DNA from: Skermanella pratensis
GTDB lineage: Bacteria > Pseudomonadota > Alphaproteobacteria > Azospirillales > Azospirillaceae
DNA: 64,000 nucleotides
NCBI RefSeq assembly: GCF_008843145.1
Contig: NZ_CP030265.1
Location: 3,774,501-3,838,500 of the forward strand
Direction: 5' to 3'
Shown one piece after another: positions 50,404 through 63,340 of this stretch. Position numbers and translations under genes: made by a program. The notes below the pieces were generated by a model that worked only from the letters and a program-made list of their open reading frames with translations, was not told where the DNA came from and did not search any database. How positions within the stretch are numbered: the first letter of the stretch is position 1; the number at the start of each line of letters is the position of its first letter.

Positions 50404-50460
50404 AGGGTTGAGGCGGCCCGGGTGGAGCTCGCAGAGCGGAACCCGGGCCGCCTCAACCCT
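50404..50460. terminator. 20-bp perfect-stem hairpin inside the IS left end
   Basis: AGGGTTGAGGCGGCCCGGGT (50404-50423) is exactly complementary to 50441-50460, with a 17-base loop. It stands between the IS end and the transposase start, and could block transcription entering from the host gene or serve in regulation of the transposase. Confidence 0.75.
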
Positions 50461-50550
50461 CCGCCCCTGGGGCCGCAACGACGCGGAGGTGGTCATCACG
50501 CTCATCAGGTAAGGTCGAGTTGCGACACGAGACCAGACCCCGAGAGAGGC

Positions 50551-51756
50551 ATGATGACCAAGGATACGATGACACTTCTGCTCGACCAGATCCAGGCCAG
50601 TACCGATGGCGACTTCCTGCGCGCCATCGCCGCTCACACGCTCCAGCGGCTGATGGAGTTCGAGGTCGACGGCCTGATCGGCGCCGGGCGCCATGAGCGC
50701 TCCGACGAGCGCACCACATACCGCAACGGCTATCGGGATCGTCAGCTGGAAACCCGGCTCGGCACGCTCGACCTGAAGATACCGAAGCTGCGCCAGGGAA
50801 CCTACTTTCCGGCCTTCCTGGAGCCCCGCAAGACCGCCGAGAAGGCGCTGACGGCCGTGATCCAGGAAGCGTGGATCCAGGGCGTGTCCACCCGCAAGGT
50901 CGATGACCTGGTCCAGGCGCTGGGCATGACCGGCATCTCCAAGTCGCAGGTCTCGGCCCTGTGCCAGGACATCGACACCCGCGTGCTGTCCTTCCTCGAG
51001 CGGCCGCTGGATGGCGAGTGGCCCTACCTTTGGCTCGATGCGACCTACATCAAGGTCCGCCAGAATGGCCGCATCGTGTCGATCGCGGCAATAATCGCCA
51101 CCGGCGTCAACCAGGACGGCCGCCGCGAAATCCTCGGGCTCGGCCTGGGCCAGTCGGAAGCCGCCACCTTCTGGATCGAGTTTCTGCGTGGTCTGGTCCG
51201 TCGCGGCCTGAAGGGCGTGAAGCTGGTGATCTCCGACGCCCACGAAGGTCTCAAGGCGGCCATCACCCAGGTCCTGAGCGCCACCTGGCAGAGGTGCCGG
51301 GTGCATTTCATGAGATCGCTATTGGCCCATGTGCCGAAAAGCCAGCAGTCGGTCGTCTCGGCCGCTGTCCGGCAGGTCTTCGTCCAGCCCGATCGCGAGA
51401 CTGCCGGACAGGCCTGGCGCCACGTCGCCGATCAGCTCCGCCCGCGCTTTCGCAAGGTCGCCGCCCTGCTCGACGATGCCGAACACGACGTGCTCGCCTA
51501 CATGGACTATCCTGAACCCCATCGTAGCAAGTTGCACTCGACCAATCCGATCGAGCGCTTGAACAAGGAAGTCAAGCGCCGGACCAATGTCGTCGGCATC
51601 TTCCCGAACGAGGCCAGCGTTCGCAGGCTTGTTGGTGCTGTACTTCTCGAGCAGAATGACGAGTGGCAACTACAACATCGTTACCTGACGCTTGAGACCA
51701 TGACCGGCATGGCCGCCAGTGATGAAGCGGCCCTCGCCGCGCTGACCAAGACCTGA
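50551..51756 (+). CDS. IS256-family transposase (MULE/DDE)
   Basis: A 401-residue transposase, full length for the family. The N-domain has GAGRHERSDERTTYRNGYRD and LDLKIPKLRQGTYFPAFLEP; the catalytic domain has LWLDATYIKVR (D), VISDAHEGLKAAI (D) and STNPIERLNKEVKRRTNVVG (E), with CRVHFMRSLLA. No stop or frameshift, so it is probably active. ATG 50551/50554 follows GAGAGG. Confidence 0.96.
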   Translation: MMTKDTMTLLLDQIQASTDGDFLRAIAAHTLQRLMEFEVDGLIGAGRHERSDERTTYRNGYRDRQLETRLGTLDLKIPKLRQGTYFPAFLEPRKTAEKALTAVIQEAWIQGVSTRKVDDLVQALGMTGISKSQVSALCQDIDTRVLSFLERPLDGEWPYLWLDATYIKVRQNGRIVSIAAIIATGVNQDGRREILGLGLGQSEAATFWIEFLRGLVRRGLKGVKLVISDAHEGLKAAITQVLSATWQRCRVHFMRSLLAHVPKSQQSVVSAAVRQVFVQPDRETAGQAWRHVADQLRPRFRKVAALLDDAEHDVLAYMDYPEPHRSKLHSTNPIERLNKEVKRRTNVVGIFPNEASVRRLVGAVLLEQNDEWQLQHRYLTLETMTGMAASDEAALAALTKT

Positions 51757-52192: not shown

Positions 52193-53110
52193 TTACGCGG
52201 GCTGCGGCTTCATCCGGGCTTCGTCCAGCCGGCGCGCGAGCTGCTCGGCGAACTTCGCGGTCGCGACCGGCAGGGTCCGGCCCCGTTGCTGGCCCAGCAC
52301 CAGCGGGCCGTGCGCCATCTCCAGGTCGCTCAGGGGAAGCGCCACGAGGCCGGGATCGGTCTCCGGCACCGGCGCGCCGATCTCGATCTGGAAAGTCACC
52401 ACGCTGCCCGACCGCGCCAGGTTCCGCAGCATCTCGAACGAGTTGGATTCCAGCTCCACCGACAGCTTCGCCGAACTGACGGACAGCAGGTCCTCCAGGA
52501 TGGCGCGGGTACCGAAGCTGCCGTCCGGCAGGGCGATCGGGTATTGCGCGCAATCGCGCAGGCGCACGACTTCCTTCCCCGTCAGGGGATGGTCGGCGGC
52601 GACGATGGCGACGACGCGCTGGCCCAGGGTCATCAGCGGCTGGAACTCGGGTGTCCTGCGCGGGCTGAAGATGATCGCAAGGTCCGTCTCGTACTCGCGC
52701 AGCATCCGGATCGCCGAGCCCTGGTCGACCACCGAGATCTGGAAGCTGACCAGCGGGAAGCGCTCCCGGAACTCCGATATCTGCCGGGGCAGCAGATAGT
52801 TCACCAGCGCCTGGCTGCACGCGATCCGGACATGGCCGCGCCTGAGGCCCGACAGGTCCTCTATGTGCGAGCGCACCCGTTCCAGGTCGGCGGACTGGCT
52901 GCGCACCCAGCGGATGAAGCTCTCCCCCGCCGCGGTCAGCCGGATCCCCTGGGCGGAGCGCTCGAAGATGGCGGCGCCCAGATCCTCCTCCACGTCCTGG
53001 ATCCGGCGCTGGAGCGCCGACGGCGTCACATTGAGCTGTTCGGCCGCCTTCCGCAGCGAACCGAACTTCGCCGCCTCGTCGACATAGCGCCAGATCCGCA
53101 TGTGCCTCAT
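52193..53110 (-). CDS. LysR-family transcriptional regulator
   Basis: A 305-residue LTTR. The N-terminal HTH is MRIWRYVDEAAKFGSLRKAA ... VTPSALQRRIQDVEEDLGAA; residues about 90-295 are the ligand domain (GHVRIACSQALVNYLLPRQI, ISVVDQGSAIRMLREYETDL). Start 53110 or 53101. It is divergent from the heterocycle cluster, 145 bp away, with a perfect palindrome between, so it most likely controls that cluster in response to a pathway compound. Confidence 0.92.
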   Translation of the reverse strand: MRHMRIWRYVDEAAKFGSLRKAAEQLNVTPSALQRRIQDVEEDLGAAIFERSAQGIRLTAAGESFIRWVRSQSADLERVRSHIEDLSGLRRGHVRIACSQALVNYLLPRQISEFRERFPLVSFQISVVDQGSAIRMLREYETDLAIIFSPRRTPEFQPLMTLGQRVVAIVAADHPLTGKEVVRLRDCAQYPIALPDGSFGTRAILEDLLSVSSAKLSVELESNSFEMLRNLARSGSVVTFQIEIGAPVPETDPGLVALPLSDLEMAHGPLVLGQQRGRTLPVATAKFAEQLARRLDEARMKPQPA

Positions 53111-53126
53111 TCCGACATACCCCGCT

Positions 53127-53147
53127 GTGTAGACTTTCCGTCTACAC
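53127..53147. promoter_or_regulatory. LysR operator candidate
   Basis: GTGTAGAC-TTTCC-GTCTACAC, a perfect 8-bp inverted repeat with a five-base spacer; it includes T-N11-A. It is 17 bp before the LysR start and 109 bp before the first ABC gene. Confidence 0.75.
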
Positions 53148-53255
53148 CCTAGCAGGAAAACGGCGTTTGAGGCGCCGTCGGATCGCGCATAGCGTCGTCG
53201 GCGTCCGGATGACGGGCATTCTCCCCTTCCCCACCCCATAGGAGGAACAGGCCAC

Positions 53256-54299
53256 ATGCGCAGCGTCATCAGCCAATGGCCCGCGGTTCTGGCGGGCGCC
53301 CTGGTCGGGGCCTTCGGCCTGGCCGGCGCGGCATCCGCCCAGACACCCGTCAAGATGGTTCTCAACTGGAAATACCAGGGACCGCAGGCGCTGTTCTTCA
53401 TCGCCGAGGACAAGGGCTACTTCAAGGCGGAGGGGCTGGACGTCACCATCGACCAGGGCGAAGGGTCGGCCGCCTCCATCACCAAGGTGGCGACGGGAGC
53501 CTACGACGCCGGGTTCGGCGACGTGAACGCGCTGATCACCCTGGCCGCCAAGTCGCCCGACGAGGCGCCGGTCGCCGTCTTCATGATGTACAACACGCCG
53601 CCCTTCACGGTCGCGGTCAAGGCGGACGGCCCGATCCGGACGCCCAAGGACCTGGAAGGCAAGACCATCGGCGGCCCCGCCAACGACGGCGCGCTCAAGC
53701 TGTTCCCGGCGTTCGCCCAGGTCGCCGGCATCGACGCCGGCAAGGTCTCCGTCACCAATATGCAGGCGAACCTGCGCGAGCAGATGCTCCAGCGCGGCCA
53801 GGTCGACGGGATCTTCGGCTATGTCAACACCATAGCCTTCAGCGCCAAGAGCGCCGGCATGGACCCGGACAAGGATTTCCGCTTCATCAACTACGGCGAT
53901 TACGGGATGGACCTTTATTCCAACGCGATCGTCGTGTCCAAGGCGTTCCTGAGCCAGAACGGCGAGGCGGCGAAGGGCCTGGTCCGGGCGATCAACCGCG
54001 CGGCCAAGGACATGATCGCCGACCCCGCCGGCTCGGTCGCGGCCGTGATGAGGCGCGAGCCCCTGCTGAACGAGAAGGTCGAGATCGAGCGCACCGTCGC
54101 CACCCTGCGGATGGAGATGAACCATCCCGAGATCGCCGCGATCGGCCTGGGCGACGTGGACGACGAACGCCTGAAGCGCGCCATCGACATGGTGGTCGAG
54201 GCCAACGGCCTGGAGAACACCCCGGAACCGTCGGCGATCTTCACCGACGCGTACCTGCCGCCGTTGTCCGAGCGGCCCACCGCCGTCATCAAGCAATAA
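53256..54299 (+). CDS. NMT1/THI5-like ABC substrate-binding protein (1)
   Basis: A 347-residue periplasmic binding protein with a signal peptide ending ASAQ (about residue 29). VKMVLNWKYQGPQALFFIAE DKGYF-type opening, IDQGEGSAASITKVATGAYD and DLYSNAIVVSKAFL match the ThiY/RibY/SsuA group, several of whose members bind pyrimidine-type or aromatic nitrogen ligands. It is the first gene after the LysR operator. A second, related binding protein lies at 58283, sharing the LNWKYQG and IDQGEGSAA segments. Confidence 0.9.
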   Translation: MRSVISQWPAVLAGALVGAFGLAGAASAQTPVKMVLNWKYQGPQALFFIAEDKGYFKAEGLDVTIDQGEGSAASITKVATGAYDAGFGDVNALITLAAKSPDEAPVAVFMMYNTPPFTVAVKADGPIRTPKDLEGKTIGGPANDGALKLFPAFAQVAGIDAGKVSVTNMQANLREQMLQRGQVDGIFGYVNTIAFSAKSAGMDPDKDFRFINYGDYGMDLYSNAIVVSKAFLSQNGEAAKGLVRAINRAAKDMIADPAGSVAAVMRREPLLNEKVEIERTVATLRMEMNHPEIAAIGLGDVDDERLKRAIDMVVEANGLENTPEPSAIFTDAYLPPLSERPTAVIKQ

Positions 54300-54313
54300 C
54301 CAGAAGAAGACAC

Positions 54314-55105
54314 ATGGAACTGGGTCTGAAATCGCGGGTCGTGATGATCACCGGCCCCGCGAAAGGAATGGGAGAGGCCGTCACCATGGCCTTTGCCGCC
54401 GAAGGCTGCCGGCTGGCGCTGGTCGGGCGCGACGTCGCCGCGATCGAGCCGGTCGCCGCCAAGGTCCGGGCGCTGGGCGCGGAGGCGATCGTGATCCACT
54501 GCGACATCACCGACGAGGCGCAATGCGCCGGGGCGGCCGAACGGACGCTCGCGGCCTTTGGGCGGATCGACGTGCTGGTCAACGTGGCGGGCGGCTCCGG
54601 CCCGGTCGGCAAGACCGGCTGGGAGACCACCCGCGAGGAGTTCGACGAGATCGTGGAGCTGAACATGGCGGGATGCTTCAACACCATGAGCGCCGTCATG
54701 CCGACCTTCATCGACCAGCGCTACGGCAAGGTCGTCAATGTCGGCGGCACCTTCGGGATGCGCGGCCGGGCCGGCCGGATGGCCTATTCGGCGTCCAAGT
54801 GGGGCCTGCGCGGCATCACCAAGTCCTTCGCGCTGGAGGCCGGGCCCTACAACGTCAACGTCAACTGCGTGGCGCCGGGCATGGTCGAGGGGCCGCGCTT
54901 CCGCGGCAAGGTCGTGCCGGAAATGGCCCGGCGGCTCGGCATCACCGAGGAGGAGGCGGCCGAGCGGCACGCCGCCGACTACGCGCTGCGCCGCGTCTCC
55001 ACCGGCGAGGACGTGGCCAAGGCGTGCCTCTTCCTCGCCAGCGACGCGGCCCGCCAGATCACCGGCGTCGATCTGCCGGTGGACGGCGGCTGGGCCTCCC
55101 TCTGA
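54314..55105 (+). CDS. SDR-family oxidoreductase
   Basis: A 263-residue SDR. VVMITGPAKGMGEAV is a TGxxxGxG variant, CDITDEAQ, NVAGGSGPVGK, the Ser/Tyr/Lys set GGTFGMRGRAGRMAYSASKW and C-terminal TGVDLPVDGGWASL are typical. It would oxidise or reduce a ring or alcohol carbon of the pathway compound with NAD(P). It starts 14 bp after the binding-protein stop. Confidence 0.92.
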   Translation: MELGLKSRVVMITGPAKGMGEAVTMAFAAEGCRLALVGRDVAAIEPVAAKVRALGAEAIVIHCDITDEAQCAGAAERTLAAFGRIDVLVNVAGGSGPVGKTGWETTREEFDEIVELNMAGCFNTMSAVMPTFIDQRYGKVVNVGGTFGMRGRAGRMAYSASKWGLRGITKSFALEAGPYNVNVNCVAPGMVEGPRFRGKVVPEMARRLGITEEEAAERHAADYALRRVSTGEDVAKACLFLASDAARQITGVDLPVDGGWASL

Positions 55106-55122
55106 CACAGGACGACAGGAAC

Positions 55123-56589
55123 ATGGAAACCGGAAAGACCCTCGCCGACCTCGTCATCACCGGCGGCACCATCGTCACCGACCAAGCCAGCTTCCGGGGC
55201 GCCGTCGCCGTCAAGGACGGCCGCATCCTGGCGGTGGGCGCGGACGAGTCCATGCCGGCCGCGCGGGAGACCTTCGACGCGGCCGGCCTGCACCTGCTGC
55301 CCGGCGCGATCGACGCCCACGTCCATTTCCGCGAACCGGGCTATACCCACAAGGAGGACTGGCGGACCGGAACGGCGGCGGCGGCCATGGGCGGAGTCAC
55401 CACCGTCTTCGAGATGCCCAACACCGACCCGCCGACCGGCACGGTCGAGGCGCTGAGGATCAAGCAGCAGGCGGCGGCCAAGGCGCACGTGGACTACGGC
55501 CTGTACGGGCTGCTCGCCGAGGACAACCTGGACCAGCTGGACGGCCTGGTCGCGGGCGGCGTGGCCGCGTTCAAATGCTTCATGGGCAACACCTTCGGCA
55601 ACCTGCCCTCGCCCTCCACCGGCGCCATGCTGGAAGGGTTCGAGATCATCGCGCGGCACGGGCTTCGCATCTCGCTCCATGCCGAGACCGCCTCCATCAT
55701 GGCGTGGCGCCAGCGCAAGCTGATGGCCGCCGGCCGGCGCGATCCGCTCGCCCACTTGGCGTCGCGCCCCGCCGTGGTCGCGACCGAGGCGGTGTCGCGC
55801 GCCGCGATCCTGGCTGAATGGACCGGCGCCCGCATCCACGTCCTGCACATCTCCTCGGGCGACGAGCTGCGGCCGCTGCGGGAGGCGAAGGCGCGCGGCG
55901 TCGACGTCACCGGCGAGACCTGTCCGCATTACCTGCTGTTCGACGAGCGGGCCTATGCCGACCTGGGCTCGATCATCCGGGTCAACCCGCCGGTCCGCGA
56001 GCGGCATCACCAGCAGGCGCTCTGGGAGGGCCTCAGGGACGGCACGATCGACATGATCGCGACCGACCACGCGCCGCACGATCCCGGGGAAAAGGTGCGG
56101 GACGACATCTGGACGGCCGATTGCGGCTTCCCCGGCGTCGAGACCCAGATGCCGCTGATGCTGACCCAGGTGAACGCCGGCCGCCTGTCGCTGACCGACT
56201 ATGTGCGGCTGTCCTCGACGGCCCCGGCCAAGGCGTTCGGCCTCCATCCGCGGAAGGGGGCGATCATGCCCGGCGCCGACGCCGACATCGCGCTGGTCGA
56301 TCTGGCCCGGCGCGAAACGGTCCGCGCCGACGCGCTGCACTCGCGCGGCAGGATCACGCCGTTCGAGGGGTTCGAAACGGTGGGCGCGCCGATCCACACG
56401 CTGGTTCGGGGTCGGTTCGTGATGCGGTACCGCCGGCTGGTCGAGGATGCCTCCGGGTGGGGCCTTCCGGTCGGCCGGGTCCAGGCCATGCCGGAACCCC
56501 AGCCCCGCCACGTCGAGGAGACGACCGCCGCGATCACCGGCGCCCGTCCGGCTGGCGCGACGGCTCCGTCCGTTCGGGCGGCCGAGTGA
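55123..56589 (+). CDS. dihydroorotase/hydantoinase/allantoinase-family cyclic amidohydrolase
   Basis: A 488-residue metal-dependent cyclic amidase. IDAHVHFREPGYTHKEDWRT (HxH), FKCFMGNTFG (carboxylated Lys), SLHAETASIM, HVLHISSGDE and ATDHAPHDP (Asp) give a complete two-metal site. It hydrolyses a cyclic ureide or imide ring; the sequence alone cannot choose between dihydroorotate, hydantoin, allantoin and dihydropyrimidine. The C-terminal 40 residues (EETTAAITGARPAGATAPSV) are an unstructured tail. Its stop overlaps a GTG (56586) of the next frame. Confidence 0.9.
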   Translation: METGKTLADLVITGGTIVTDQASFRGAVAVKDGRILAVGADESMPAARETFDAAGLHLLPGAIDAHVHFREPGYTHKEDWRTGTAAAAMGGVTTVFEMPNTDPPTGTVEALRIKQQAAAKAHVDYGLYGLLAEDNLDQLDGLVAGGVAAFKCFMGNTFGNLPSPSTGAMLEGFEIIARHGLRISLHAETASIMAWRQRKLMAAGRRDPLAHLASRPAVVATEAVSRAAILAEWTGARIHVLHISSGDELRPLREAKARGVDVTGETCPHYLLFDERAYADLGSIIRVNPPVRERHHQQALWEGLRDGTIDMIATDHAPHDPGEKVRDDIWTADCGFPGVETQMPLMLTQVNAGRLSLTDYVRLSSTAPAKAFGLHPRKGAIMPGADADIALVDLARRETVRADALHSRGRITPFEGFETVGAPIHTLVRGRFVMRYRRLVEDASGWGLPVGRVQAMPEPQPRHVEETTAAITGARPAGATAPSVRAAE

Positions 56590-56609
56590 AGACGAACCCG
56601 AGGACATCC

Positions 56610-57485
56610 ATGCAGACGGCGAAATCACCCAGCCTGGTCCCGATCCCGCTGAAGCCGGACCCGGACCAGCAGTCCCCGCGCAAGCTGTTCATCGAACTGG
56701 AAAAGGTCACCGTCTCCTACGGCAAGGGGCCGGGCGCCACCCAGGCGCTCTCCGAGATCACGCTCCAGGTCGGCGAAGGCGACTTCATCGCGCTGGTCGG
56801 ACCGTCGGGCTGCGGCAAGAGCACGATCCTGAAGCTGGTCGGCGACCTGCTGAAGGCGTCGAGCGGCCACGTCTTCGTGGCCGGGCGGGAAGTCGGGGCG
56901 CAGGACGTGCGGATCGGCATGGCCTTCCAGAACCCGACGCTGCTGCCCTGGCTGAGCATCCGCGACAACGTCATGCTGCCTCTCAAGATCGTGCAGCCTT
57001 TCCGGGCCGACTGGAAGCGCAAGCGGCACGGCGAGTACCGCGACCGGGCCGAAGCTCTGCTGGCCAAGGTCGGCCTGGGCGGCTTCGGCGGCAAGTATCC
57101 CTGGCAGCTCTCGGGCGGCATGCAGCAGCGGGCCTCGCTGTGCCGGGCGCTGATCCACGACCCCAACCTGCTGCTGCTGGACGAGCCGTTCGGCGCGCTG
57201 GACCAGTTCACGCGGGAGGAGCTTTGGGACATCCTCCAGACGCTGTGGATCGACGGCAAGCCGACCGTGCTGCTGGTCACCCACGACCTGCGCGAGAGCG
57301 CCTTCCTGGCCAACCGCATCGTCGTGATGAGCGCCCGGCCCGGGCGGATCCTGGTGGACGAGCCGGTCGGCTTCGCCCGCCCGCGCACGCTGGACACGAC
57401 CTACCAGCCGGGCTTCACCAACCTGACCCACAAGCTGCGCACCCTGATCGTCGAGGCCCGGAGCGCCGCGGGAGGTACCCCATGA
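56610..57485 (+). CDS. ABC transporter ATPase (nitrate/sulfonate/taurine type)
   Basis: A 291-residue ATPase. GPSGCGKSTILKLVG (Walker A), QLSGGMQQRASLCRAL (signature), LLLLDEPFGALD (Walker B) and LVTHDLRESAFLANR (H-loop). ATG 56610 has GAGG six bases upstream; GTG 56586 is possible. It energises uptake with the permease, with which its stop overlaps (ATGA at 57482). Confidence 0.96.
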   Translation: MQTAKSPSLVPIPLKPDPDQQSPRKLFIELEKVTVSYGKGPGATQALSEITLQVGEGDFIALVGPSGCGKSTILKLVGDLLKASSGHVFVAGREVGAQDVRIGMAFQNPTLLPWLSIRDNVMLPLKIVQPFRADWKRKRHGEYRDRAEALLAKVGLGGFGGKYPWQLSGGMQQRASLCRALIHDPNLLLLDEPFGALDQFTREELWDILQTLWIDGKPTVLLVTHDLRESAFLANRIVVMSARPGRILVDEPVGFARPRTLDTTYQPGFTNLTHKLRTLIVEARSAAGGTP

Positions 57486-58255
57486 CCAGCCTGAACCGGG
57501 AGAAGATCGCGTCCGCCGCCCTGATCGCCGGGGTCTTCGTGGCATGGGAGGTCGGCTGCCTGCTGTTCGGCATCAGCGAATACGTCCTGCCGCGCCCGTC
57601 CCAGATCGTCATGGTGCTGGTGGAGCGCTGGCCCGCCCTGATGCCGCACGCGGTACAGACACTCTACACCACGCTGGTCGGGTTCGCGCTCGGCGTCTCC
57701 GCCGGGGTGCTGATCGGAATGCTGATCGGGTCGTCCAGGCTGGCCTACAACGTGGCGTTCCCCCTGCTGGTGGGCTTCTCGTCGATCCCCAAGGTGGCGG
57801 TGGTGCCGATCTTCGTGCTGTGGTTCGGCGCCGGGACGGTTCCGGCGGTGCTCACCTCCATGATCATCTCGGTCTTCCCGGTGGTGGTGAACATGGCGAC
57901 GGGGCTGGCGACCACGGAGCCGGAGCTGGAGGACGTGCTGCGCACGATGAAGGCGACCAAGCGCGACATCCTGCTGAACGTCGGGCTGCCGCGCGCCATG
58001 CCGTACCTGTTCGCCTCCCTCAAGGTCGCGGTCACGCTGTCCTTCGTCGGCACGGTCATCGCGGAGACGGTCGCGTCCAACCGGGGGATCGGCAACATGA
58101 TGCTGATCGCCTCCTCCAACTTCAACGTCCCCCTGGTCTTCGCCGGGCTCTTCATCCTGGCCGGCCTCGGCATCGCGCTCTACGTCGTCTTCTCGCTGAT
58201 CGAGCGCCGCGTGACCGGCTGGGCCAACCGCAAGACCGAATTCGCGATGGGCTGA
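57482..58255 (+). CDS. ABC transporter permease (SsuC/TauC/ThiX type)
   Basis: A 257-residue permease with six helices. The EAA loop is ATKRDILLNVGLPRAMPYLF ASLK; IPKVAVVPIFVLWFGAGTVP is the family P-loop-like motif. It forms the membrane channel with the ATPase; two binding proteins (53256, 58283) could serve it. ATGA overlap with the ATPase gene. Confidence 0.95.
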   Translation: MTSLNREKIASAALIAGVFVAWEVGCLLFGISEYVLPRPSQIVMVLVERWPALMPHAVQTLYTTLVGFALGVSAGVLIGMLIGSSRLAYNVAFPLLVGFSSIPKVAVVPIFVLWFGAGTVPAVLTSMIISVFPVVVNMATGLATTEPELEDVLRTMKATKRDILLNVGLPRAMPYLFASLKVAVTLSFVGTVIAETVASNRGIGNMMLIASSNFNVPLVFAGLFILAGLGIALYVVFSLIERRVTGWANRKTEFAMG

Positions 58256-58282
58256 CGCCCGCGCACAGCATCGGAGAACACC

Positions 58283-59341
58283 ATGATCGACATATCCCGC
58301 CGGGCCGCCCTGGCGGCCGGGTTCGGCCTCGCGCTCGCCGTCTCGCAGCCGTTCGCCGTCACCCCGGCCCAGGCCCGGGAGCCGACGCCGATCCGCTTCA
58401 CGCTGGACTGGAAGTACCAGGGCATCCACGCCTGGTACTTCGTCGCCCAGGACAAGGGCTATTTCCGCGACGAGGGGCTGGAGGTCACGATCGACCAGGG
58501 CGAGGGGTCCGCCGCCACCGTCACCCGCATCATGTCCGGCGCCTACGACGCCGGGTTCGGCGACATCAACGCCGTGATCCAGCAGGCGGCGCAGAAGCCC
58601 GGCGAGGCGCCGGTGATGGTCTACCAGATCTACAACCGTCCGCCCTTCGCGGTGCTGACCAGGACGGACAGCGGCATCGAGGACATGAAGGACCTGGCCG
58701 GCCGCAAGGTCGGCGGCCCGGCCGGCAGTGCCGCGACCCGGCTGCTTCCGGCGCTGCTGGCGCGGAACGGCGTGGCGGAGCCGTCGGTCGAGGTGCTGAA
58801 CATGCAGCCGAACCTGCAGGAGCAGATGCTGATCCGCGGCGAGGTCGCGGCCTCCCTGGTATTCAACGTGACCAGCTACGTCAACCTGATCCAGCAGGGC
58901 CAGGACCCGGACGGCGATTTCCGCTGGCTTGACTATGCCGACCACGGGCTGGACCTCTATTCCAACGGCGTGATGGTGTCCCGGGATCTTGCCCGCGACA
59001 AGCCGGAGGCGGTCCGAGGGCTGGTCCGGGCGATCAATCGGGCGGTGCAGGACGTGATGGCCGATCCGGACATGGGCGTGAAGGCGCTGACCGCGGTCGA
59101 GCCGCTGGTCGATGCCGGCAGCGAGGGGCGCCGGGTGCGGTTCGCCTTCGACCGGTTGATGATCACGCCGGAAACGCGGAAGATCGGGCTGGGCGACGTG
59201 GACGACGCCCGGCTGGAGCGGTCCATCGCGGTGATGGCCGAAGCCTACGACCTGCCGCGGAAGCCCGAGCCGTCGCAAGTGTTCGACCGGTCGTTCCTGC
59301 CGCCGCAGGACCGGCGCCTCGTCGCCGGCGCGGGGAATTGA
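58283..59341 (+). CDS. NMT1/THI5-like ABC substrate-binding protein (2)
   Basis: A 352-residue periplasmic protein with a signal peptide (ISRRAALAAGFGLALAVSQP, cleavage near AQA). IRFTLDWKYQGIHAWYFVAQ DKGYF, IDQGEGSAATVTRIMSGAYD and DLYSNGVMVSRDLA make it a clear paralogue of the 53256 product. Two receptors on one transporter suggest two related ligands, or capture of substrate and intermediate. Confidence 0.92.
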   Translation: MIDISRRAALAAGFGLALAVSQPFAVTPAQAREPTPIRFTLDWKYQGIHAWYFVAQDKGYFRDEGLEVTIDQGEGSAATVTRIMSGAYDAGFGDINAVIQQAAQKPGEAPVMVYQIYNRPPFAVLTRTDSGIEDMKDLAGRKVGGPAGSAATRLLPALLARNGVAEPSVEVLNMQPNLQEQMLIRGEVAASLVFNVTSYVNLIQQGQDPDGDFRWLDYADHGLDLYSNGVMVSRDLARDKPEAVRGLVRAINRAVQDVMADPDMGVKALTAVEPLVDAGSEGRRVRFAFDRLMITPETRKIGLGDVDDARLERSIAVMAEAYDLPRKPEPSQVFDRSFLPPQDRRLVAGAGN

Positions 59342-59349
59342 GGCCCGAC

Positions 59350-60804
59350 ATGACGGAAAGATCCATCGCCTGCGCCGGCCTGCTCCACGGCAGGGGCTAC
59401 GACCTGCAGGGGCCGTGCCGGGTCTCGCTCGACGGCGGCCGGATCGCCGGCGTGGCGGGGATCGACGGGGAGGCCGACCCGCTGTTCGTCCTGCCGGTGC
59501 TGGTCAACGCCCACGACCACGGCCGGCCCGTGCGGTCCAGTTCCTTCGGGGCGGCGGGCAAGCCGCTGGAACTCTGGCTCCAGTACCTGGCGCTGCTGCC
59601 GGCGGTGGACCCGTACCTCGCCGCCGCGGCCTCGCTGGGCCGCAGCGCCCTGGGCGGGGCCGGCGCCGTCATGGTCCATCATACGCGGGTGCAGGGATTG
59701 ACCCCGCTTCCCCTGGAAGCCGCCGAGGTCGCCCGCGCCGCCGCCGACATCGGGGTGCGGATCGGCTTCGCGGTCGCGCTGAAGGACCGCAACCCCTTGG
59801 TCTACGGCCCGTCGGAGGAAGTGCTGGCCCTGCTGCCGGAGGACGCCCGGCGCGAGATCGCCCGGCGGACCGGCAATGCCCCGATGCCCGTCGAGGACCA
59901 GATCCGGCTGGTCGAGGAAGTGGCCGGCGCCGCGGCCGGCGACCTGGTGGACGTGCAGTACGGGCCGACCGGCGTCCAGTGGTGCTCGCCCGGGCTGCTG
60001 CGTGCCGTCGCCGACGCCTCCGCCCGGACCGGCCGGCGGGTGCATATGCACTGCCTGGAGACGCGCTACCAGCGTGACTGGGCGGACCGCAATTTCGCCG
60101 GAGAACCCGGGGGGATGTTCGCCTTCCTGAAGGGGATCGGGTTGCTGTCGCCGCGCCTGACGCTGGCGCACTGCACCTGGGCGCGGCCGGAAGAGCTGGA
60201 CCTGATCGCCGAATCAGGCGCCACGGTCGCGGTCAACACGGGCTCCAACCTGGGCATCCGGTCCGGCATCGCGCCGGTGGCCGAGATGGTGGCGCGCGGC
60301 TGCAAGGTAGCATTGGGCCTGGACGGGCTGACGCTGAACGAGGACGACGACGCGCTGGGCGAGATGCGCCTCGCCAACGCGCTGCACCGCGGCTGGGGCT
60401 TCGACACCGCGATCGACGAGACGGCGATGCTGCGGATCGCCCTGGCCAACGGGCGTGCCGCCGTGACCGGACGGGACGAGGGCGGCGCCATCGAACCCGG
60501 AGCGCCCGCGGACCTGCTGCTACTCGACACCGGAAGGCTGGACTCCGACCGGCTGGTGCCGGACCTGTCGCCGCGCGACCTGCTGTTCGCCCGCGCCGGC
60601 GCCGGCCATGTCGCCGAGGTGATCGTGGCGGGACGGACGGTCGTGCGGCGGGGCAAGGTGACGGGAATCGACCACGACGCCGCCCAGGCCGAGCTGCTGG
60701 ACCGGATGCGCCACGGCATCAAGGAGAACGACGCCCTGCGGGCCGCGCTGCCGGAGCTGGGCCGCGCGCTGCACCGGCATTTCGCGGCGGCACCCTGCTG
60801 CTGA
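59350..60804 (+). CDS. amidohydrolase (deaminase/ureidase-like)
   Basis: A 484-residue amidohydrolase-superfamily protein. VLVNAHDHGRPVRSSSFG provides HxH, HMHCLETRYQRDW and LTLAHCTWARPEEL the later His, and VALGLDGLTLNEDDD the Asp, so a one-metal site similar to the ATZ/TRZ and cytosine deaminase group. It may deaminate the ring compound or hydrolyse the ureido acid left after ring opening. TTG 59338 is an alternative start but ATG 59350 fits the family. Confidence 0.87.
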   Translation: MTERSIACAGLLHGRGYDLQGPCRVSLDGGRIAGVAGIDGEADPLFVLPVLVNAHDHGRPVRSSSFGAAGKPLELWLQYLALLPAVDPYLAAAASLGRSALGGAGAVMVHHTRVQGLTPLPLEAAEVARAAADIGVRIGFAVALKDRNPLVYGPSEEVLALLPEDARREIARRTGNAPMPVEDQIRLVEEVAGAAAGDLVDVQYGPTGVQWCSPGLLRAVADASARTGRRVHMHCLETRYQRDWADRNFAGEPGGMFAFLKGIGLLSPRLTLAHCTWARPEELDLIAESGATVAVNTGSNLGIRSGIAPVAEMVARGCKVALGLDGLTLNEDDDALGEMRLANALHRGWGFDTAIDETAMLRIALANGRAAVTGRDEGGAIEPGAPADLLLLDTGRLDSDRLVPDLSPRDLLFARAGAGHVAEVIVAGRTVVRRGKVTGIDHDAAQAELLDRMRHGIKENDALRAALPELGRALHRHFAAAPCC

Positions 60805-60836
60805 GCCGCCCAACGAACGGAAGACCAGGACACATC

Positions 60837-61946
60837 ATGACATCAGGCATTCGCCCCGGCGTCGCGGTCCACCGCGTCGCGACCACCGGCCCCGACGACG
60901 TGGCCGGGCTCGAACGGCTGGTCCGGGCGGGCGAGCTGGACCCGGCCGGGATTGTCGCGATCCTCGGCAAGACGGAAGGAAACGGCTGCGTCAACGATTT
61001 CAGCCGGGGCTTCGCCACCCAAAGCCTCAAGTTGTTCCTCCAGGGGCATGTCGGGCGGGAGGCGGCCGGGCGCGTCTGCCTCGTGATGTCCGGCGGGACC
61101 GAGGGCGCCCTCTCCCCCCACTGGATCGTGTTCGAGCGCCGGGAGTCGGATGAGTCGGCGCGCGGTCCGGCGCTCGCCATGGGAAGCGCCATCACCCCCG
61201 ACCTGCCGCCCGAGCATCTGGGCCGCCGCGCCCAGGTGGAGATGGTCGCGCGGGGAGTTGCCGACGCCATGGAGCGAGCGGGCATCGCCGATCCGGCCGC
61301 CGTGCATTTCGTGCAGATCAAGTGCCCGCTGCTGACGGCGGCCCGCGCCGCCGAGGCCGAGGCCCGGGGCCGGGCGACCGCCACGCGCGACACGCTGAAG
61401 TCCATGGGGCTGTCGCGCGGCGCCAGCGCGTTGGGCGTCGCCGTGGCGCTGGGCGAGCTGTCGATCGGGGAAATCCCCAACGGCGCCATCGGCACCGACA
61501 TGGGCCTGTGGTCCGGGCGGGCCAGCACCTCGTCGGGGATCGAGCTGATGGGCCACGAGATCCTGGTGCTCGGCATGAGTCCGGACTGGACCGGTCCGCT
61601 CGCCATCGACCATGCGGTGATGCGGGATGCCGCCGACATCGGCCCGTTGCGCGCGGCGCTGGCGCGGCTGGGCCTCGACGCGGAGGGGCAGCTCGACGCC
61701 TCCGCGCGGGCCAGGGTCAGGGCCGTGCTCGCCAAGGCGGAGGCGTCGCGAAGCGGCACCGTGCGGGGGCTGCGGCACACGATGCTGGACGACAGCGACA
61801 TCTCGGCGACCCGGCATGCCCGCGCCTTCGTCGCCGGCGTGCTGGCCGGGACGATGGGCATGACCGACCTGTTCGTTTCCGGCGGGGCCGAGCACCAGGG
61901 ACCGGACGGCGGCGGGCCGGTCGCGATCATCGCGGAACGGGCCTGA
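60837..61946 (+). CDS. ring-opening amidohydrolase, cyanuric acid hydrolase/barbiturase family
   Basis: A 369-residue member of the small AtzD/TrzD/barbiturase family (three-repeat fold with Ser-Lys dyads). Diagnostic are AILGKTEGNGCVNDFSRGFA, CLVMSGGTEGALSPH, VQIKCPLLT, ALGVAVALGE, GRASTSSGIELMG and FVSGGAEHQGPDGGGPVAII. Each repeat supplies a Ser and a Lys. The family opens cyanuric acid to carboxybiuret or barbiturate to ureidomalonate. Which of the two, or another ring, cannot be told by eye. It is 33 bp after the amidohydrolase gene. Confidence 0.92.
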   Translation: MTSGIRPGVAVHRVATTGPDDVAGLERLVRAGELDPAGIVAILGKTEGNGCVNDFSRGFATQSLKLFLQGHVGREAAGRVCLVMSGGTEGALSPHWIVFERRESDESARGPALAMGSAITPDLPPEHLGRRAQVEMVARGVADAMERAGIADPAAVHFVQIKCPLLTAARAAEAEARGRATATRDTLKSMGLSRGASALGVAVALGELSIGEIPNGAIGTDMGLWSGRASTSSGIELMGHEILVLGMSPDWTGPLAIDHAVMRDAADIGPLRAALARLGLDAEGQLDASARARVRAVLAKAEASRSGTVRGLRHTMLDDSDISATRHARAFVAGVLAGTMGMTDLFVSGGAEHQGPDGGGPVAIIAERA

Positions 61947-61950
61947 GCCG

Positions 61951-62910
61951 ATGCCCGGCCGGATCGAACTCCTCCCCGAACCCGGAACGGTCCACTGGGG
62001 CCATTTCGACGCGGCGCTGGCCCCGGTCGCCGAGATCGCCGGCGGCGGCACCGTCGTCATCCATACCGTGAGCGGCGGCCGGGACGACCTGCCGCCGCCC
62101 GGCTCCGGCATGACGGTCCGGCCCGAGCACCGGCGCATCCTCGACGCGGTCGAGCCGGACATGGGGCCGCACATCATGACCGGCCCCGTCGCCGTCCGGG
62201 GCGCCGAACCGGGCGACGCGCTTCGCGTCGAGATCCTGGACGTGGCGCTGCGCGAGAATTGGGGCTTCAACCTGATCAGGCCGGGCGCCGGAGCCCTGCC
62301 GGACCGGTTCCCCGATCACCGGCGGATACACCTGCCGATCGACCGGGCGGCGGGAAAGGTGCTGACGCCCTGGGGGCTGGAGATCCCGGCCCGTCCTTTC
62401 TTCGGCGTGATGGGCACCGCGCCGGCGCCGGACCTGGGGCGGCTCACCTCGATCGTGCCGGGAGCCTTCGGCGGCAACATCGACAACAAGGAGCTGACGG
62501 CAGGATCGGTCCTGTACCTGCCGGTCTGGACGGAGGGCGCGCTGTTCTCTGCCGGCGACGGCCACGCCGCCCAGGGCGACGGGGAGGTCTGCCTGACCGC
62601 GGTGGAGACGGGCCTGACCGGAACCTTCCGCATCGACCTGGTAAAGCGGGCCGGACTGACGTCTCCCCGGGCGGAAACGCCGGACCACCTGATCACCATG
62701 GGCTTCGACGAGGACCTGGACGAGGCCGCGCGCATGGCCCTGATAGAGATGATCGGGCTGATCACCGAACGCACGCCCCTGTCGGAGGAGGAAGCCTACC
62801 GGCTGTGCAGCCTTGCAGCCGACCTGCGCGTCACGCAATTGGTGAACCGGCGCAAGGGCATCCATGCCATGCTGGGGCGCTGGGCGCTCCGGACGAAACC
62901 AATCCCCTGA
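61951..62910 (+). CDS. acetamidase/formamidase-family amidase
   Basis: A 319-residue FmdA/AmdA-family protein. TVHWGHFDAALAPVAEIAGG, TGPVAVRGAEPGDALRVEIL, RPFFGVMGTAPA, GAFGGNIDNKELTAGSVLYL and SAGDGHAAQGDGEV are family blocks with the metal-binding His/Asp/Glu. It would release ammonia from a small amide or urea-type product of the ring opener. It starts four bases after the previous stop. Confidence 0.93.
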   Translation: MPGRIELLPEPGTVHWGHFDAALAPVAEIAGGGTVVIHTVSGGRDDLPPPGSGMTVRPEHRRILDAVEPDMGPHIMTGPVAVRGAEPGDALRVEILDVALRENWGFNLIRPGAGALPDRFPDHRRIHLPIDRAAGKVLTPWGLEIPARPFFGVMGTAPAPDLGRLTSIVPGAFGGNIDNKELTAGSVLYLPVWTEGALFSAGDGHAAQGDGEVCLTAVETGLTGTFRIDLVKRAGLTSPRAETPDHLITMGFDEDLDEAARMALIEMIGLITERTPLSEEEAYRLCSLAADLRVTQLVNRRKGIHAMLGRWALRTKPIP

Positions 62911-62927
62911 CGGGGAGGAGAGAGACC

Positions 62928-63340
62928 ATGGAAAATCTGAAGATCACCATCAACGAGATGGTCTTCGACGCACGACTGGAACTCCAGGCGGCGCCGAAGA
63001 CCTGTGCCGCCTTCATCCAGCGCCTGCCGTTCGATTCCCAGGTCGTCCATGTCCGCTGGAGCGGCGAAGGCGTCTGGATCCCGCTCGGCGACTATGATTT
63101 CGGCGTCGGATACGAGAACCACACCAGCTATCCGGCCCCGGGCCAGATCATCCTGTATCCCGGCGGGATCAGCGAGACCGAGATCCTGCTGGCCTATGGC
63201 GGGGTGCAGTTCGCCAGCAAGATGGGCCAGCTGGCCGGCAACCACTTCATCACCCTGACCTCGGACTGGAGAACCTGCCCGAGGTCGGCCGCCTCGCCCT
63301 GTGGCACGGCGCCCAGAAGATCAGGTTCGAGGCGGCGTGA
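62928..63340 (+). pseudogene. DUF3830 (cyclophilin-like) protein with a late frameshift
   Basis: ATG 62928 after GGGGAGGAGAG encodes MENLKITINEMVFDARLELQ, CAAFIQRLPFDSQVVHVRWS and MGQLAGNHFITLT, then leaves frame at about 63263. The following +1 frame reads LENLPEVGRLALWHGAQKIR FEAA and stops at 63340, the normal family end. One extra G in TCGGACTGG joins them. The short cyclophilin-fold DUF3830 proteins are often found near ring-opening amidohydrolases. Real loss or base-call error is unresolved. Confidence 0.8.

Follow-up and report, generated by a model that had tools for sequence, protein, structure and literature searches.

A LysR-linked gene cluster of Skermanella pratensis joins a predicted cyanuric acid hydrolase to an SDR-cyclic amidohydrolase core

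Gene content of the cluster

We analysed a 64-kb stretch of DNA from the soil bacterium Skermanella pratensis (positions 3774501-3838500 of a single 5.87-Mb contig; hereafter the window, to which coordinates refer unless a contig or locus is named), focussing on a cluster of eleven genes at 52193-63339. An initial annotation had described this cluster as a probable pathway for import and ring opening of a nitrogen heterocycle, with an apparently undescribed substrate. It consists of a divergent LysR gene and a series of ten genes, several of which abut or overlap. All genes named in that annotation were found at their coordinates, and the best Pfam E-values per gene range from 5e-26 to 2e-147, far above chance, so that accidental family matches are excluded.

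The LysR-type regulator (52193..53110, minus strand; PF00126 and PF03466) has CynR as its best NCBIfam match with 134.6 bits, which is below the cut-off of 277. The gap between LysR and the first gene of the series contains a perfect 8-bp inverted repeat with a 5-bp spacer (53127..53147), a candidate operator that is identical in S. rosea and degenerate in two further species; as 35 such repeats occur in the 64 kb, it is not rare by itself. A second short palindrome (53158-53168) is located in the same gap, within a block that is identical in four Skermanella genomes.

The ten genes of the series are all encoded on the plus strand. SBP1 (53256..54299; PF09084, 5e-40) is an NMT1/THI5-type periplasmic receptor whose nearest solved relatives, 4nmy and the formylaminopyrimidine-binding 3ix1, are weak matches. 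It is followed by an oxidoreductase of the short-chain dehydrogenase/reductase (SDR) type (54314..55105; PF13561) and by DHO (55123..56589), a cyclic amidohydrolase of the dihydroorotase/allantoinase/hydantoinase type with a complete two-metal site. The ATPase (56586..57485, starting with GTG at 56586 or ATG at 56610; PF00005, 3e-30) and the permease (57482..58255; PF00528, 5e-26) of an ATP-binding cassette (ABC) transporter come next, then SBP2, a second NMT1/THI5-type receptor (58283..59341; PF09084, 6.5e-41), and ATZ (59350..60804; PF01979, 1e-33), an ATZ/TRZ-type amidohydrolase and probable amino-heterocycle deaminase. The series ends with the predicted cyanuric acid hydrolase (CAH) of the AtzD family (60837..61946; NF052395), with FMD (61951..62910; PF03069, 7e-35), an FmdA_AmdA-family hydrolase and probable open-chain amidase that reaches 78.9 bits against a cut-off of 500 for the formamidase FmdA equivalog, and with a DUF3830 protein (62928..63339; PF12903, 1.4e-27 for the in-frame part). 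Alignment of the DUF3830 gene with three relatives revealed one base fewer at 63258-63270, and in this assembly its last ~25 residues, after about 63266, are out of frame.

The ring opener and the downstream genes

The sequence of the 60837-61946 product gives good support for its assignment as a cyanuric acid hydrolase. It scores 555 bits against the NCBIfam equivalog NF052395 (cut-off 360), and its best solved relative is 4nq3 from Azorhizobium caulinodans ORS 571 (471 bits, 66.7% identity), compared with only 238 bits for the barbiturase chain 5hwe. According to passages of PMC4051656, the catalytic dyads are Lys40/Ser79, Lys156/Ser226 and Lys285/Ser333 in 4nq3 numbering, accompanied by arginines 52, 188 and 314, and Gln replaces Arg188 in barbiturases. 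CAH matches 4nq3 at all three Ser-Lys dyads and at Arg52, Arg188 and Arg314, with Arg instead of the barbiturase Gln both in the window protein and in all 82 rows compared. Tree, scores and residues thus place it on the cyanuric acid hydrolase side of the AtzD/barbiturase family, and a barbiturase or pyrimidine role of the ring opener, which is unlikely, was rejected on the basis of the equivalog score, the Arg188 position and the identity to 4nq3. As it falls among the characterised cyanuric acid hydrolases, the predicted substrate is a known one, contrary to the initial annotation; for SDR and DHO that part of the annotation may be right. In the same passages of PMC4051656 the Km for cyanuric acid is 370 µM for the Azorhizobium enzyme and 23 µM for AtzD, suggesting a looser fit to cyanuric acid on the Azorhizobium branch.

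The tree was built from 89 CAH rows, and on it the label for operon linkage needs 9 changes, 5 of them forced by well-supported branches, with a mean of 24.1 after shuffling; two rows from short contigs without a full DHO (L039, L045) were classed as operon-type for the tree and residue counts from their neighbouring genes only. A single clade of operon-linked CAHs was therefore rejected, although these proteins are still clustered. 4nq3 forms one well-supported group with three Xanthobacteraceae rows (L020, L021, L031), each of which is operon-linked. Ser227 is present in 6/27 operon rows and 4/55 others and was rejected as a sign of operon linkage. A second AtzD-family protein, 48% identical and with Cys replacing Arg52, is encoded in genome G388 (L098 9460-10557); its gene adjoins an open reading frame whose start resembles an amidase, and it is possibly a different ring opener.

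Genes for the subsequent steps are located at ~4.96 Mb of the same contig, with AtzD at 3.835 Mb. This locus encodes AtzE (704 bits, cut-off 461), the allophanate hydrolase AtzF (778, cut-off 511) and an AtzH/HpxZ protein (202 bits for PF11533; 208 for HpxZ, cut-off 135), as well as, near AtzF, a receptor of the BMP type and a permease-like protein. A BiuH gene (L120 13072-13733; C1:4967071-4967732) reads as two overlapping frames with pieces of 235 and 178 bits, and a second BiuH-like hydrolase at the locus scores 255 bits (BiuH cut-off 370). Together with the break in the DUF3830 gene, the two-frame BiuH gene might reflect insertion or deletion errors of the assembly. Another allophanate hydrolase gene lies at 5.13 Mb. 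Among 14 control genomes one has an allophanate hydrolase over the cut-off and none has an AtzD-family match. An atzDGEHF-type operon was not found, as AtzE, AtzH and AtzF do not lie beside AtzD (no search for AtzG was made). Judged by these scores, the gene set predicted to lead from cyanuric acid to ammonia is present, split between two sites ~1.1 Mb apart. Gene-family clustering of 81 loci, a set biased towards the window, placed in 41 of them a receptor group with a representative similar to the BMP-type receptor of the genome, and in 37 a group that we take for AtzF/AtzE-like amidases; the BMP group label occurs in none of the operon-type loci among the 81.

The SDR-DHO core and its modules

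Scanning 84,980 species genomes yielded at least 597 stretches, 586 of them confirmed, and the 80 loci nearest to the window CAH were used. An AtzD-family gene is present in all five genomes of the genus, including that of S. pratensis, and the cluster was seen in the three other species read (S. rosea, S. aerolata and G388), with no match for FMD in G388. The nearest record in the plasmid collection is that of S. rosea, with a 95% identical CAH and the operon on plasmid pSR-2. On this plasmid DUF3830 and a cytochrome c gene are kept apart by an amidase and a further ABC transporter (L082 17828-21805); in the window the cytochrome c gene directly follows DUF3830, leaving no space for them. At the other end, an IS256-family transposase (50437-51756; 364 bits, cut-off 150) lies just beyond the LysR gene.

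A DHO of at least 60% identity lies beside CAH in 23 of the best 80 of the 586 CAH loci, a share that is inflated as the 80 were chosen for their nearness to the window CAH. In 105 loci searched, 37 contain a DHO of at least 60% identity, and in 37/37 an SDR is found within 13 kb, with a permease near DHO in 31 and LysR close to it in 32; at 50% identity or more there are 48 DHO loci, 41 of them with SDR. The 37 do not include eleven loci (L090, L091, L150-L158) with a DHO only 53-56% identical, where the SDR is 63-64% identical in L090, L155 and L157, 51% in L091 and in the other seven below 50% or absent, nor four hits of at least 60%, one at a contig end (G625) and three in Azospirillum (H45, H46, H47). 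The core of the cluster is SDR plus DHO, and CAH is not part of it. The order SBP1-SDR-DHO-ATP-PERM-SBP2-ATZ is found in G528 (one contig, 98% complete; L146) and G485 (98%; L147), near-complete genomes without any AtzD-family gene, indicating that the core works without CAH. G485 also has no allophanate hydrolase at an E-value of 1e-120, which 8 of 12 tested genomes have, including G528. Two further genomes (G575, G549) carry the cluster with CAH on another contig, and two Azospirillum plasmid clusters lack an adjacent CAH, with DHO a few kb off on the opposite strand. Within one order, an AtzD-family gene is present in 11/16 genomes with a DHO match at 1e-140 compared with 39/283 without, a difference on which we place little weight.

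DHO retains H66, H68, K151, H186, H242, D315, R70 and N100 in 49/49 rows. It exceeds the cut-offs of the allantoinase model AllB (TIGR03178; 376 bits, cut-off 357.85) and of pyrC_multi (TIGR00857; 331, cut-off 279) and does not reach that of PRK09060 (395, cut-off 482). The pair Arg70/Asn100 corresponds to residues that we take to bind the substrate carboxylate in dihydroorotases, and our guess from this role is that the substrate is a carboxylated or imide-like cyclic ureide. In the SDR, G144, G145, T146, Y158 and K162 are kept in 42/42 rows and the motif GGTFG is invariant. Asn117, Tyr158 and Lys162 are retained, and in all 42 rows Gly145 occupies the Ser position of aligned SDRs, presumably that of the catalytic Ser in the Asn-Ser-Tyr-Lys tetrad of classical SDRs, so that the classical tetrad is incomplete. 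Reduction of a C=N or C=C bond would be equally possible as alcohol/ketone exchange. ATZ is a distant relative of triazine deaminases and dechlorinases within the same superfamily and retains H54, H56, H233, E236, H273 and D324 (numbering without the start Met) in 28/28 rows, presumably forming a mononuclear deaminase-type site.

Co-occurrence was evaluated for 15 pairs in 28 of the 31 permease loci, omitting L031, L041 and L054 as short contigs, with p-values that ignore relatedness. SBP2 and ATZ occur together in 20 loci, SBP2 alone in 1, ATZ alone in 2 and neither in 5 (p=0.0012), suggesting that ATZ acts on an amino analogue taken up through SBP2. FMD and an isochorismatase-family hydrolase (ISO) are never found together (FMD only in 8 loci, ISO only in 10, neither in 10; p=0.025), which suggests that both fill one step, the cleavage of the open-chain product. 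ISO is present in all 7 loci without SBP2 and in 3/21 with it (p=1e-4). The four ISO proteins tested are below the cut-offs of both RutB and BiuH (108-141 bits against 378 for RutB).

Some related SDR-DHO loci have further neighbours, namely an M20 hydrolase (L088, L090), HyuA/HyuB (L088, L089, L140) or a hydantoin-racemase-family gene. G298 (L090 2200-13865) has a more elaborate form of the operon, CAH-SDR-isochorismatase-DHO-M20 with an amidase and two Rieske oxygenases of the VanA type next to it, and a LigB-type extradiol dioxygenase accompanies SDR-DHO in L148 (6084-7001, by Pfam) and L149 (12517-13449, by eye from a similar start). The Rieske, LigB, M20 and HyuA/HyuB neighbours are in keeping with nitrogen-ring catabolism.

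A proposed two-armed operon and known systems

We read the cluster as one LysR-controlled operon with two arms, one for cyanuric acid via CAH and one for a second cyclic ureide, and put the probability of this reading, which is drawn from sequence comparison, at roughly 55%. In the first arm CAH would open cyanuric acid to carboxybiuret/biuret. Its conversion to ammonia and CO2 would fall to AtzF together with AtzE/AtzH, BiuH-like enzymes or both, whose genes lie elsewhere in the genome. In the second arm the ABC transporter and SBP1 would import the cyclic ureide, and SBP2 would bring in an amino analogue to be deaminated by ATZ to the same series. SDR would alter the redox state of the ureide, DHO would open the ring at an amide, probably one adjoining a second carbonyl or a carboxylate that Arg70/Asn100 hold in place, and FMD, or perhaps ISO in other species, would split the open-chain amide. 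Import and ring opening as initially annotated are well supported by families, active sites and synteny; the single linear pathway did not hold, as the core exists without an AtzD-family gene.

Several observations weigh against the two-armed reading. The co-occurrence statistics take no account of relatedness, and the share of clustered loci is raised by the choice of the 80. Among close core relatives CAH is present in 4/9 genomes compared with 46/290 others, a weak co-occurrence. CAH is found in 10/10 loci with ISO and in 12/18 without (p=0.06), and ISO may act after CAH, on its product, rather than replace FMD. None of the four BiuH places in the genome passes the cut-off of 370. Given the BMP-type receptor and permease beside AtzF, the ABC system of the cluster may not carry cyanuric acid. 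Finally, the direction and chemistry of the SDR step are uncertain because the usual Ser is replaced.

Products of uric acid oxidation include oxonate and hydroxyhydantoins. Tentatively, the core might degrade a cyclic ureide in carboxylated or oxidised form by an undescribed pathway, spread over several alphaproteobacterial families, in which the Ser-less SDR would prepare the ring for the dihydroorotase-like amidase. CAH would then often be linked to it since both substrates arise together, for example by non-enzymatic oxidation of uric acid, and the operon would scavenge oxidised purine debris and not a xenobiotic; this proposal, the most novel of those considered, is possible but less likely than not. 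Triuret and cyanuric acid are both uric acid oxidation products, the latter named as such in the part of the TrtA paper available to us.

Alternatively, the core might be a hydantoin- or allantoin-type ureide pathway in which DHO is a true allantoinase or hydantoinase and CAH an unrelated passenger, present by chance or co-selection. DHO passes the AllB cut-off, its relatives are labelled allB in several records, and the HyuA/HyuB, M20 and hydantoin-racemase-family neighbours of related SDR-DHO loci point in the same direction. However, in place of the invariant Arg70 the aligned allantoinase 3hm7 has Asn and the aligned hydantoinases 1gkr and L172, the latter from the same genome, have other residues, and CAH recurs within the cluster in several families. 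The genome also encodes a protein over the cut-off of TIGR03212 (558 bits, cut-off 425), a model that we take to cover PuuE-type allantoinases, as well as two genes of the dihydropyrimidinase/hydantoinase type that exceed the cut-off of TIGR02033, so that an allantoinase or simple hydantoinase role of DHO would be redundant. We therefore regard this explanation as unlikely.

A little less probable still is one linear s-triazine pathway, in which ATZ, SDR and DHO would convert an amino- or carboxy-substituted triazine such as oxonate to cyanuric acid for CAH. The proximity of CAH to the core in 23 of the best 80 loci, the superfamily of ATZ, though the relation is distant, and the origin of cyanuric acid from uric acid given in the TrtA paper would agree with it. 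The ABC-SDR-DHO-SBP2-ATZ set in G528 and G485, where no AtzD-family gene is present, and the two Azospirillum plasmids without an adjacent CAH argue against it, as does DHO itself, since an amidase that opens rings would not be expected to act before a step whose substrate still has the triazine ring intact; a linear pathway ending in CAH was accordingly rejected as the principal explanation. Catabolism of uracil- or thymine-like compounds by a barbiturase or other pyrimidine-ring opener is very improbable: the Pfam family shared with barbiturases, the weak resemblance of SBP1 to pyrimidine-precursor receptors and the speculation in passages of PMC9456165 that AtzD opens the pyrimidine ring of chlorimuron-ethyl are set against the Arg at the barbiturase Gln position, the equivalog cut-off cleared by 195 bits and the higher score of 4nq3 over 5hwe.

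The two-armed reading bears on the natural role of cyanuric acid hydrolase, an enzyme that the literature, in the parts accessible to us, treats mainly in connection with herbicides and pool chemicals; in Chenggangzhangella atzD and atzF are reported to lie in one gene cluster and to be up-regulated with chlorimuron-ethyl (passages of PMC9456165). Here CAH is repeatedly found beside an SDR and a cyclic amidase, in an operon shared by several alphaproteobacterial families. Knowing the substrate of these two enzymes would show with which compound cyanuric acid occurs naturally and would assign a function to the automatic annotations 'AllB', 'dihydroorotase family' and DUF3830. The cluster is amenable to testing, as it offers a pair of binding proteins and a single regulator, and as several modules are present in some natural variants and missing from others. 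In the open-licence literature searched we found no CAH operon with an SDR, a cyclic amidase and NMT1 receptors, though an earlier mention is possible, no bacterial degradation of oxonate and no occurrence of the word DUF3830.

Comparison with known systems places the cluster beside several pathways. In outline it follows the Rut and reductive pyrimidine pathways, with uptake, a redox step, opening of the ring and an amidase. It differs from them in that none of the ten scanned cluster products matches RutA or RutB (RutA was not searched for in the rest of the genome), as the initial annotation had noted, and that ISO of the sister loci stays below the RutB cut-off. The atzDGEHF system of Pseudomonas sp. 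ADP and the Rhizobium AtzD/BiuH route share with S. pratensis the AtzD step and, genome-wide, AtzE, AtzH, AtzF and BiuH-like proteins; here, however, AtzD lies ~1.1 Mb from the others among SDR, DHO, a deaminase and NMT1 receptors, which the passages available on those routes do not mention. The 4nq3 enzyme has the three Ser-Lys dyads, the three substrate arginines and Ser227 in common with CAH, whose activity is predicted from these likenesses, and differs at Tyr331, which is Phe in the window protein. DHO, finally, resembles AllB and class I dihydroorotases in its two-metal ligands and in passing TIGR03178 and TIGR00857, but is set apart from the aligned allantoinase and hydantoinases by Arg70, and is distinguished by the SDR that accompanies most of its relatives of at least 50% identity (41/48 loci).

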